DNA from: Pseudobutyrivibrio sp.
Lineage (GTDB): Bacteria > Bacillota_A > Clostridia > Lachnospirales > Lachnospiraceae
Reading direction: 5' to 3'
Assembly: GCA_024691465.1 (NCBI GenBank)
Contig: JAILNO010000061.1
Span: forward strand, 1 to 5,094
Length of the DNA: 5,094 nt
Part shown: positions 2,121-5,094 of the stretch, in pieces
How the letters are laid out: each line of letters opens with the position of its first letter
How positions within the stretch are numbered: the first letter of the stretch is position 1
Translations under genes and position numbers: made by a program
Notes under the pieces: generated by a model
What the model was told of the DNA's origin: nothing
Database searches by the model: none
What the model saw: the letters and a program-made list of their open reading frames with translations, nothing else

Positions 2121-4595
2121 TTATTTAAAAGTTACGATGGTAACACCTGCATCACCCTCGCCGAATTCTCCCTGATGGAATTCCTTGATATTCTTGCACT
2201 TGCGCAGATACTGCTGAACTCCCGCGCGCAAGGCTCCTGTGCCCTTACCATGTACCACCCTGACTGAAGTCAGATGACTGATGTAGGCATCATCTAAGTA
2301 CTTCTCAAGCTTAGCTATACCCTCATCTACTGTACAACCCAGTAGATTAATTTCAGGAGAAATAGACGCAGCCTTGTTGAATCCGCCGTAGGTCATATTC
2401 TTAACTCGAGTGCCCTTCTTAGGTACGAACTTATCCTCTTCCTCTATGAGAACCAGATCCTTAATATTCACAGTGGACTTCATGATACCCATCTGTACCA
2501 TCACATCCCCCTTACTGTTAGGCTTAGAGCATACATTACCAGTGAGATTCATCGAGAGTACCTTGACCTTATCACCCACATGGAGGTCGGTAGGCACATT
2601 ATGATTCTCCTGAGGCTTAGCCTCTTCCTTGGCCTTGCTCTTAGACTTGTTGATATTCTTACCAAGAGCCTGACGCTTAGCTTCCATGGCAGAGATATTG
2701 CCGTTACCTTTTCCGAACTTATTGAAATCACGGATAGTCTCATCTGCCAAATCCTTCGCTTCCTGAAGAATATCTGCAGCCTCCTGATGGGCATCTCGAA
2801 TAATCTCCTCGCGCTGAGACTTGATTCGCTCTTCCTTAGCCATAGCATCACTCAGTTTCCTCTCTGCAAGGGCCAAATCTTCTGCAGCTTTTGCTGCATT
2901 TTCCTCAACCTCATGACGCTTAAGCTCTAAATCAACCATCAAATCTTCGAAATTCTTATCGTTTTCTGACAATCTACCCTTGGCATCGTCAATTAACTCA
3001 ACAGGAATGCCTAATTTCTTAGAAATTGCAAATGCGTTAGATTTGCCTGGCACACCCATGATTAGACGGTATGTAGGACTGAGAGTTTCCAATGAGAACT
3101 CACAAGAAGCATTCTCAACACCCTCAGTTGAGAGTGCATATACCTTCAATTCACTATAGTGAGTAGTAGCCATAATACGCACATCAAGCATGTGCAATCT
3201 ATCTAGTATAGACTGTGCAAGGGCAGCGCCCTCCTTAGGGTCAGTACCAGCACACAGCTCATCGATAAGCACCAGGAACTGTGGGACCTTAGCAGGCTCA
3301 TTGCTACCATGCAACACCTTAGAATTCCTGAAGTCTATCTTATTCTTCTCTATAATCTCCTCAGTCTCATGTGAGTAGCTTCCACTATCGATAGCCTCTA
3401 GTATGTGGACAATATTAACCATATGAGATGAGAATGTGGACAAGGACTGCTCAATAGACTGCTCATCACCTATATCTGCATACACATCATCGAATACTGC
3501 AATCTGGCTCCTATCCTTAGCAGGTATATGAAGTCCCGCCTGAGCCATAAGAGTAAGCAGACCACAAGTCTTAAGAGACACGGTCTTACCACCTGTATTA
3601 GGACCAGTCACAAGCAGCAGATTATAATCCTCTCCCAGCTTGATATCTGTAGCCACGACCTTCTTAGGGTCTAGCAATGGATGACGAGCCCCTCTGAGAT
3701 TAATAATTCCATCCTCATTGAACTCAGGATTGCTTCCATTAAGCTCTATAGCATATCTACCCTTAGCCAGCACGAAGTCAATATATGTAAGCAGCTCAAA
3801 GTTACGAATAATTCCCTCTGAGCTACTCGCTATCCTATTAGAAATATCTGCAAGAATCCTTGCAATCTCATCCTGCTCCCTAACCTGCAGCTCCCTCAAC
3901 TCATTATTCAAATCAACAGCCTGCATAGGCTCAATGAAGAAGGTCGAACCTGTAGAAGACTGATCATGCACCATACCTGGCACCCTACTCTTATAATCCG
4001 CCCTAACTGGCAGACAGTACCTACCGCCACGCAGCGTAACTACAGGCTCCTGCAGATACCCACGTGTAGTACTATTATTAAGCATAGAGTTCATAACACT
4101 CTTAATCTTCTCATTAGTCTGATGCATACCCCTACGGATATCATGTAGAGCCACACTAGCATCATCTGCAATAGTATCCTCATCTATAATGCATCGTCTA
4201 ATCTCATTAAGTATAGCCACCTCTGGTGAAAGCCCATTGAAGTAGAAGCTAAGCGCATCCTCTTCCTCCACCTGATTACCATATGTACTAACCCTCTTAG
4301 TAACCTCAAGCACCGAAGCCACCGCAAGAATCTCCTCTATGGTAAGAGTAGATCCCAGCCCTAATCTAGCCAACGAAGCCCTCAGATCCGTGGTACCACT
4401 GGCACTCACATCTCCCACCTTCACCAATCGATTAAATGCGCAAGCCGTCTCAGCCTGCATCACCTTAATCTCCTCTATATCATTAATAGGCAATAGCTGC
4501 TGACACTTAATCTTAGCCGACTCACATGTAGCCAGCTCCGCAAGCCTCGCAACTATCTTGTCATATTCCAACGTCTTTAAAACTTTAAGATTCAT
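2121..4595 (-). CDS. mutS2: MutS2, Smr-domain MutS homologue (ribosome rescue / anti-recombination ATPase)
   Basis: MutS2 is a dimeric cytoplasmic ABC-type ATPase that lacks the mismatch-recognition domain of MutS. In other bacteria it has been linked to suppression of homologous recombination and to splitting of collided ribosomes. Domains seen: N-terminal core and clamp helices (about 1-300); Walker A GPNTGGKT at 331-338; signature loop DIGDEQSIEQSLSTFSSHM at 374-392; Walker B with Asp445-Glu446 in VLIDELCAGTDP; switch His479 in TTH; a long charged coiled coil (about 545-625); a Lys-rich linker (about 640-662); a KOW-like beta domain (about 670-720); and a C-terminal Smr domain (about 748-824) with HGKGTGALR at 782-790. 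At 824 residues it is longer than the usual 780-800, largely because of an insert at about 404-438. The Smr LDLRG motif reads INLLG (749-753). ATG at 4593-4595 follows AGAGGT at a good distance and begins the standard MNLKVLKTLEYDKI N-terminus. Identity is certain; the effect of the two oddities is not known. Confidence 0.97.
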   Translation of the reverse strand: MNLKVLKTLEYDKIVARLAELATCESAKIKCQQLLPINDIEEIKVMQAETACAFNRLVKVGDVSASGTTDLRASLARLGLGSTLTIEEILAVASVLEVTKRVSTYGNQVEEEDALSFYFNGLSPEVAILNEIRRCIIDEDTIADDASVALHDIRRGMHQTNEKIKSVMNSMLNNSTTRGYLQEPVVTLRGGRYCLPVRADYKSRVPGMVHDQSSTGSTFFIEPMQAVDLNNELRELQVREQDEIARILADISNRIASSSEGIIRNFELLTYIDFVLAKGRYAIELNGSNPEFNEDGIINLRGARHPLLDPKKVVATDIKLGEDYNLLLVTGPNTGGKTVSLKTCGLLTLMAQAGLHIPAKDRSQIAVFDDVYADIGDEQSIEQSLSTFSSHMVNIVHILEAIDSGSYSHETEEIIEKNKIDFRNSKVLHGSNEPAKVPQFLVLIDELCAGTDPKEGAALAQSILDRLHMLDVRIMATTHYSELKVYALSTEGVENASCEFSLETLSPTYRLIMGVPGKSNAFAISKKLGIPVELIDDAKGRLSENDKNFEDLMVDLELKRHEVEENAAKAAEDLALAERKLSDAMAKEERIKSQREEIIRDAHQEAADILQEAKDLADETIRDFNKFGKGNGNISAMEAKRQALGKNINKSKSKAKEEAKPQENHNVPTDLHVGDKVKVLSMNLTGNVCSKPNSKGDVMVQMGIMKSTVNIKDLVLIEEEDKFVPKKGTRVKNMTYGGFNKAASISPEINLLGCTVDEGIAKLEKYLDDAYISHLTSVRVVHGKGTGALRAGVQQYLRKCKNIKEFHQGEFGEGDAGVTIVTFK

Positions 4596-4659: not shown

Positions 4660-4694
4660 CACATTTTCAACCTGCCCCGCCTCACCTACTCATG

Positions 4695-4717
4695 CCCCTC
4701 CCCACCAGGCCCTGCCC
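4695..4717 (-). other. Potential G-quadruplex upstream of the mutS2 promoter
   Basis: The plus strand has four cytosine runs at 4695-4698, 4700-4703, 4710-4712 and 4715-4717. The minus strand therefore reads G3, 2 bases, G3, 6 bases, G4, 1 base, G4, which meets the usual rule of four runs of at least three G with loops of 1-7. It lies in a wider cytosine-rich stretch (about 4670-4745) and about 36 bases upstream of the predicted mutS2 -35. Folding in the cell and any effect on mutS2 are inference. Confidence 0.6.
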
Positions 4718-4742
4718 TTTATATAGAGCCACCTCCACCCCC

Positions 4743-4756
4743 GGTGCCTTAGCACC
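4743..4756 (+). other. Small hairpin followed by a T run
   Basis: GGTGC (4743-4747) pairs with GCACC (4752-4756) around a CTTA loop, with a T5 run at 4763-4767. The stem is short and the T run starts six bases away, so it is at best a weak plus-strand terminator. It may be chance. Confidence 0.25.
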
Positions 4757-4932
4757 ATCCACTTTTTGCTGGCATCGTCTGCGGATTATGATTTTCTAAG
4801 GGTCAAGTGTCGCTTTTATTATGGTGGGCGTTTTTTCAATTCTTTGCACTTCTATCGGGATGGTTTGTAGGGGACAGACACTTATATTTATATTAAGAGA
4901 AGCTTCTACAGAACTTATGGGAGCAACTGCAT
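4757..4932. other. Intergenic stretch without a recognised gene
   Basis: No gene with a start codon and ribosome-binding site is visible here. It contains a widely spaced inverted repeat (AAGTGTC at 4805-4811 and GACACTT at 4877-4883), a GGGGACAGACACTT segment (4870-4883), an A/T-rich segment (4881-4896) and a perfect 10-base palindrome AGAAGCTTCT (4898-4907). TTGTAG (4865-4870) and TATATT (4889-4894), 18 bases apart, form a poor candidate plus-strand promoter for the structured element that follows. The composition differs from the cytosine-rich segment on its left, as expected if the right-hand part were an inserted or repeated element. Confidence 0.4.
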
Positions 4933-5094
4933 GACCGTACGAGTGAGCTTAGTAAAATAGAAGCAGTTTATAATGTGAACTGGGCACGCGGAGCCATGGA
5001 CGGCGCAGCGAGCCTTAAAATGAAACGGACTGATTTTTAAGGCGGTGCCCATTCACAAATAAACTGCTTCGTAATTTTACTTAGCAAACGGGTC
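4933..5094 (+). repeat. Long imperfect palindrome: structured RNA or MITE-like element, possibly cut by the window edge
   Basis: The two halves of this 162-base segment are nested complements. Outermost, 4933-4938 pairs with 5088-5094 with one bulged G. Next, 4947-4958 pairs with 5074-5085 (11 of 12). Then 4960-4970 pairs with 5060-5070 (11 of 11). Then 4975-4987 pairs with 5045-5056 with one bulged C. These enclose a branched centre with a perfect 9-base-pair hairpin, 5012-5020 with 5035-5043, and a weak 3-pair stem, 4993-4995 with 5002-5004. This amount of ordered pairing is far beyond chance. I do not recognise the family. Possible readings are a palindromic intergenic repeat or non-autonomous mobile element, or a stable non-coding RNA; the strand is arbitrary because either strand folds. 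The pairing reaches the final base, so more may lie outside the window. Confidence 0.75.
5012..5043 (+). other. Apical hairpin inside the palindromic element
   Basis: GCCTTAAAA (5012-5020) pairs perfectly with TTTTAAGGC (5035-5043) around a 14-base loop, 5021-5034. It forms one arm of the branched centre. A 14-codon reading frame (ATG at 4996, TAA at 5038-5040) runs across it, but no convincing ribosome-binding site precedes that frame. Confidence 0.7.

Follow-up and report, generated by a model that had tools for sequence, protein, structure and literature searches.

The palindrome at the end of the window, the stretch of 5,094 nucleotides analysed here, is probably one copy of a non-autonomous, MITE-like transposon whose conserved centre is the candidate RNA TwoAYGGAY (RF01731), and those copies that are transcribed would act as sponges for CsrA. 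The family of which it is a member was known before. What is new is the nature of that family as a MITE-like mobile palindrome with a tip resembling CsrA sites, the mobility being well supported in relatives. In these data, the orphan candidate RNA family of 2010 is thus part of a mobile palindrome.

The window palindrome and its family

As first described, the palindrome spans positions 4933-5094 and comprises the core together with the pairs that close it; the window end truncates it. The plus strand has a predicted folding energy of -65.5 kcal/mol. A set of 200 dinucleotide shuffles averages -37.6 (s.d. 3.6), which puts the palindrome at z = -7.8, and every shuffle folds less well; the minus strand gives a comparable z of -8.6, as a palindrome should. 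The predicted helices of 4+2, 3+8, 12 and 6+7 pairs are in good agreement with the four successive helices of 6, 11, 11 and 12 pairs that the preliminary description had read from the letters. The 9-pair hairpin that it placed at the central junction is also there, with 5012-5020 paired with 5035-5043, but it overlooked a second, small hairpin at 4993-5004 of the plus strand. The apical loop of this small hairpin, which comes first, is AUGGAC (4996-5001), a GGA-in-loop motif, and the loop of the 9-pair hairpin (5012-5043, plus strand) holds ACGGAC (5025-5030). These are the two loops by which TwoAYGGAY is defined.

The TwoAYGGAY core itself, the tip of what appears to be a larger palindrome, occupies 4940-5092 of the plus strand. 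There the RF01731 model matches from position 1 to 168 of 168 with 50.4 bits against a gathering threshold of 43 (cmscan), and among the covariance models of Rfam it is the sole match at the curators' cut-offs in the whole window. The palindrome had been called unrecognised and without a family that could be named; with this full-length match to a known Rfam family, the outcome named beforehand as speaking against it, that claim falls. The accompanying suggestion of an undescribed structured RNA survives in part, in that the core, a putative transcript, covaries strongly (in 29 of its 30 predicted pairs) and has a strand-specific GGA-loop tip.

The 2010 discovery paper regarded the motif as probably an RNA, and its table enters 'n' for cis-regulation (PMC2864571). 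In 2014 TwoAYGGAY was proposed, from the likeness of its loops, to be a CsrA-binding sRNA of Clostridia, validation being then under way (PMC4333381). A structure study lengthened one of its helices (PMC7657543) before Rfam 15 gave the family two additional covarying pairs (PMC11701678), and a preprint (PMC11661157) finds its two hairpins to be unequally stable and describes the motif as relatively unexplored. Searches for the name and the accession listed no paper on its mobility, and among the matches listed by further literature searches no title ties TwoAYGGAY to mobile elements. The Rfam type label of RF01731 is 'Cis-reg', and the clan CL00106 presumably gathers CsrA-binding RNAs.

In the window, the palindrome is divergent from a minus-strand gene at 2121-4595 that we take to be mutS2; a long open frame at 32-2074 presumably encodes a GH42-type beta-galactosidase-like protein. 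The closest relatives of the putative mutS2 (84-89% identity in the best segment) lie in loci L001-L025 and L040, all of them from Pseudobutyrivibrio except L025 (Butyrivibrio fibrisolvens 16/4). An Rfam scan of eight of the mutS2 loci found a copy of the core in L001 only, on the opposite side of mutS2, so that the insertion site of the window is common to none of the eight. Upstream of mutS2, at a distance of 0.1 to 2.4 kb, a pan motif (RF01749) was observed in the Pseudobutyrivibrio loci L004, L005, L007 and L010.

In relatives the core is, as judged from arm-to-arm alignment, the tip of a larger palindrome; the strict alignment extends 37-348 bp past the core in 17 Pseudobutyrivibrio loci. 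From 4771 onwards the window aligns to the left arms of Pseudobutyrivibrio copies, taken in the AYGGAY orientation (73% over 234 columns for 4784-5012 against L066; 70% for 4771-5004 against L079; partial alignments for L071, L065, L056, L054 and L050). By this homology, 4771-4939 would be the left middle arm of the larger palindrome, and the right partner, if present, would lie past the window end; the element probably continues beyond 5094. The C-rich stretch at 4670-4770 is a candidate for a copy-private outer left arm, its position and composition being as in L001, L073, L100 and L111.

Dispersal and target sites in relatives

The many dispersed copies that characterise a MITE are present in relatives. 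The mutS2 loci led to 17 genomes, of which 16 have RF01731 matches, all 16 being Pseudobutyrivibrio with 1-49 copies each (176 matches summed over the 17 genomes, 49 of them in G015), and the search of the remaining one, Butyrivibrio fibrisolvens 16/4, gave zero. The taxonomic family has RF01731 in 65 of 397 genomes, in 63 of them above cut-off, with per-genome copy numbers that for many genomes are to be read as 'at least'. In a sample of the class it occurs in 36 of 391 genomes (27 above cut-off). A search with the core DNA at E 1e-5 gave no match among plasmid or phage records.

The TwoAYGGAY palindromes have the anatomy of a non-autonomous DNA transposon, and their mobility in relatives is well supported. 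A 745-bp copy (L055:1203-1947) is absent at the same place in G018, G020 and G002, where the flanks run on continuously; G003 is also without it, in a less clean alignment, and G019 has the copy with its core flipped. A 5-bp duplication considered at L055 was dropped, the site being a T-run. Genome G196 has five copies that are 93-96% identical over ~310-340 bp and have unrelated flanks. The terminal inverted repeats in this genome are ATTCGGGTGTCAAAAGGT, and part of the Pseudobutyrivibrio copies have GTTACTATTCACGG-like terminal inverted repeats. At up to 2 mismatches the G196 end sequence occurs 73 times, against 2 for a reversed control pattern.

Eighteen repeat-bounded elements of G196 are flanked, as a set, by 9-bp direct duplications: 104 of 162 positions are identical (null 75.1), a value reached in 0 of 20,000 shuffles, and the inverted flanks of the set show zero signal (69, null 81.2). 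Individual duplications score unevenly and often poorly, from 1 to 9 of the 9 positions, and in some elements the inverted flanks match better than the direct ones (for example L205, and L223, where they are perfectly inverted). The six core-bearing elements, five from the RF01731 search plus L231 (107.5 bits), give 36 of 54 on their own (null 26.2, 4 of 720 permutations). The other twelve (L223-L230, L233-L236) are 71-201 bp long and have the same ends; all twelve were scanned, with an RF01731 match at cut-off in none, and folds were computed for six. They read as shortened relatives without the tip. For Pseudobutyrivibrio copies with repeat ends of the second type, 8-bp duplications were scored in the 10 of 12 that were anchored, and the result (44 of 80, null 24.9, 0 of 1,000) is the best of 42 settings of length and offset.

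Target duplications and an empty site in relatives mark the element as a MITE-like transposon and not a fixed RNA gene. The preliminary description had offered a non-autonomous transposable repeat as one of its two readings, and relatives bear this out: their copies are dispersed, end in inverted repeats and are, as sets, flanked by target duplications, and one copy has an empty counterpart site. For the window copy, mobility would follow by homology with these relatives.

An autonomous partner was sought in one draft genome, G196, and no transposase with the element's ends was found there. PF00872 (IS256 type) is represented in G196 by one broken place. A likeness to the end sequence, with 4 mismatches, lies beside it, apparently inside the neighbouring frame, and 7 of 300 shuffles have one as well; on the other side the likeness is zero. 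This place may be at most a weak lead to the partner transposase. PF06782 (ISLre2 type) has zero matches in G196 and likewise zero in control genomes. Paired cores in divergent (inverted) orientation, ~90-850 bp apart, occur at L206, L211, L218, L221 and L222; they were considered as possible composite transposons, and inspection by eye showed no transposase-like frame between the cores.

Several insertions were observed directly behind intrinsic terminators (L055/L117, L125, L126, L130, L131, L132 and L065). Within about 15 bases of such a terminator lie 7 of 22 sides, compared with 2 of 22 control sides taken 200-275 bp away; in this tally L055 and L117 count as one insertion, and the terminator beside L126, seen by eye, stands outside the script's score. 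Group IIC introns target intrinsic terminators, and the insertions next to terminators are reminiscent of that.

Private arms and the maintenance of pairing

The copy-private palindromic arms call for a mechanism of their own. Arm blocks were compared in 20 of the 49 copies of G015, 18 of the 23 of G001 and 7 of G020. At 0-120 bp from the core, the copies within these genomes have stretches in common. Further out, at 180-240 bp, the left and right arm of a copy go on matching, with mean scores of 24, 32 and 33 (G015, G001 and G020), whereas different copies of one genome are unrelated, with scores of 10, 11 and 13 (shuffled 8, 9 and 8). The within-copy match is above the between-copy median in 18 of 20, 17 of 18 and 7 of 7 copies, or 42 of 45 in total, in draft assemblies, which may render palindromes wrongly and place many copies at the ends of contigs. 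Self-complementary, copy-private blocks of this kind were seen in loci L123-L128, L132 and L073-L112 (G020, G015, G001).

In 5 of the 7 copies of G020, the private blocks are inside recognisable terminal repeats, so in that genome they belong to the element and not to the target. That the outer arms are palindromes already present in the target is therefore unsupported in G020, and so it is at L045 and L055: what relatives have at these sites is an ordinary terminator.

Arms can reach into the neighbouring genes; read by eye, they extend to or across the stop codon of the flanking gene at L001, L044, L100 and L111. At the site of L045, three genomes (G018, G005 and G002) have convergent genes ending in KLQENK and ESRD with a plain terminator between them, and G020 has a different terminator and a first gene ending in KLAETQK. 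G003, compared with L118-L122, has the element where the intrinsic terminator would be, and its first gene ends in KLAEARD; the final two codons and the stop of this gene repeat the end of the neighbour gene in inverted form. The orthologous copies L055 (G005) and L117 (G019) have opposite core orientations, which indicates that the palindrome flips. Template switching at quasipalindromes has been reported to create and repair hairpins (PMC8794818), and we infer that it is the likeliest cause both of the copy-private arms and of the rewritten gene end at L045.

The same process bears on how the covariation of the core is to be read. Among 26 cores, two-sided changes are seen in at least one sequence for 29 of the 30 predicted pairs. 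If a single RNA strand were under selection, G-U would be favoured. In the tip hairpins, there are 7 G-U and 3 A-C in 552 cells (92 distinct hairpins). Over 137 elements, counted with duplicate places, two contig-cut loci and the paired and short loci left out, G-U stands at 361 against 418 A-C in the arms outside the core, and at 81 against 47 in the core. The five related copies of G196 alone have 36 G-U and 5 A-C, core and arms together; a comparison with the pairing of tRNAs rested on 7 tRNAs and has little weight. Since changes in the helices are two-sided and G-U is scarce, their pairing may be kept at the DNA level, and the G-U excess of the core speaks, as far as it goes, for RNA selection. 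The helices would stay paired mainly by DNA processes, namely the transposition of intact palindromes and template switching from arm to arm, and it would be these rather than selection on one RNA strand that maintain them. Paired changes alone are no proof of a functional RNA in a mobile palindrome. The conservation and covariation of TwoAYGGAY need rereading, as transposition and the copying of arms can produce what looks like selection on an RNA.

CsrA-site likeness and competing explanations

A site for CsrA/RsmE has, by consensus, GGA in a loop closed by a short stem. The plus-strand apical loops of TwoAYGGAY carry GGA closed by short stems, for example ACAUGGAUGU, and fit this consensus; in the window both loops have it on the RNA strand, as would be expected of a sponge RNA. 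Eighty of 138 folds have two hairpins (the other 58 have three to five), and among these 80 GGA is in both loops in 33, in one in 46 and in none in 1, so that at least one loop has it in 79. It is in the 5' loop only in 43 of the 80, and the 3' loop reads CACGAUG in many Pseudobutyrivibrio copies. Two-hairpin folds of the reverse strand have GGA in one loop in 3 of 96, and the tip is thus strand-specific. A stricter GGA-hairpin pattern, applied to 137 elements, occurs twice in 40, once in 58 and not at all in 39. Twelve class-sample cores were folded, of which 9 carry GGA in each loop; the other 3 have one loop of the CACGAUG type. Binding of CsrA by the tip is likely in view of these sequences.

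The hosts of the element nearly always have csrA. In the family, csrA is found in 62 of the 65 genomes with RF01731 and in 148 of the 332 others (Fisher 4e-16, for genomes that are dependent and drafts that are unequally complete). In the class sample, the figures are 25 of 30 and 10 of 50 (Fisher 2.9e-8, for genomes with the same dependence and unequal completeness), 5 of the 30 being without a csrA match. This sample took all 30 new RF01731 genomes and 50 of the 342 new non-matching ones, picked at steps and not at random; the 6 remaining class genomes with RF01731 were already csrA-positive in the family comparison. Nine of the 30 matches are below the Rfam cut-off; csrA accompanies 8 of them, and 17 of the remaining 21. 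Flagellin, in 64 of the 65 RF01731 genomes of the family and 149 of the 332 others, follows RF01731 as closely as csrA does, and the csrA link may therefore be one of motility or ancestry. Both csrA and flagellin were counted by eye from result lists for the RF01731 genomes. In B. subtilis and C. jejuni, CsrA is antagonised by the FliW protein (PMC4894983).

In the reading that we consider probable, a transposase acting in trans would move the palindrome, and a copy would be transcribed by read-through from a neighbour or from a promoter of its own. The transcript would form a single long hairpin with two GGA loops to which a CsrA dimer could bind, making each transcribed copy a small CsrA sponge. 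The predicted CsrA binding would then appear in a new light, in that a global regulator could find its sites multiplied across a genome by a mobile element. A more far-reaching version, possible but rather doubtful, is a selfish transposon linked to CsrA, which would spread only in csrA hosts, make transcript ends into CsrA sponges and template-switch its private arms, sometimes rewriting the ends of host genes.

The element could also be mobile with a tip that is a DNA hairpin, its loops being read by the transposition machinery in single-stranded or cruciform DNA and its likeness to CsrA sites being incidental. Two-sided changes almost without G-U in the tip (7 G-U and 3 A-C in 552 cells), G-U no commoner than A-C in the arms (361 against 418) and the lack of a clear sense orientation to genes speak for this. 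Against it, GGA is retained in the tip loops between flanking pairs, in the manner of the CsrA/RsmE consensus, G-U exceeds A-C in the core (81 against 47) and hosts nearly always have csrA. In addition, derivatives without the tip share the element's ends, so that the tip is dispensable in cis, at least for them. Overall, we regard an incidental likeness as rather unlikely. An ordinary chromosomal sRNA family, a CsrA sponge that has been duplicated and passively dispersed, is improbable even though the loop likeness, the printed prediction of 2014 (PMC4333381), the covariation of the core and the association with csrA hosts all fit it. It does not account for the empty site, the terminal inverted repeats, the tip-less elements with the same ends or the mixed orientation, and the target duplications largely refute it as the sole explanation.

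The placement of the copies bears on two further proposals. Orientation was tallied for 101 single-core loci with enough flank, one being unclassified and the five paired loci, shorter loci and L149 being left out. In Pseudobutyrivibrio, 13 of 26 copies lie between convergent genes and 1 between divergent genes. Together with the copies that closely follow an intrinsic terminator (7 of 22 sides, controls 2 of 22) and the L045 element, which occupies the terminator position of its relatives, this would suit an element that is mainly a bidirectional transcription terminator or a 3' end stabiliser between genes. However, the 74 copies outside Pseudobutyrivibrio show no clear preference (-/- 30, +/+ 18, convergent 13 and divergent 13), and termination does not require conserved loops, so that such a role is as improbable as a plain sRNA family. 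A cis-regulatory leader, for which the Rfam type 'Cis-reg' speaks, is expected to keep a constant orientation to its gene, but all four orientation classes occur among the 100 loci, orientation to both neighbours varies and the table of the original paper has cis-reg as 'n' (PMC2864571); this is very improbable.

Several known systems resemble the preferred reading, a mobile palindrome whose transcribed copies are CsrA sponges. As in the template-switch mutations described earlier (PMC8794818), changes would be two-sided in one step and arms would be homogenised, and the L045 gene end agrees with that of the adjacent gene read in inverted form; here the process would act on arms of up to about 300 bp inside a mobile element. 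With TwoAYGGAY as published, the window copy shares a full-length match to the model, the two AYGGAY loops and the taxa (Clostridiales), but what was published as a candidate RNA sits, in relatives, at the tip of a mobile palindrome that occurs in many copies and whose arms extend past the ends of the model. MITEs and ERIC-like palindromic repeats are short and dispersed, with inverted repeat ends, 8-9-bp duplications and shortened derivatives. TwoAYGGAY elements have all of these features; they differ in their conserved, branched, RNA-like tip with loops resembling protein sites and in arms that hold copy-private self-complementary blocks. Finally, sponge RNAs of the CsrB/RsmZ type have many GGA sites in hairpin loops. 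TwoAYGGAY, as a putative sponge RNA, likewise has GGA in hairpin loops, and in pairs, but it offers one or two sites and not many, and is mobile.
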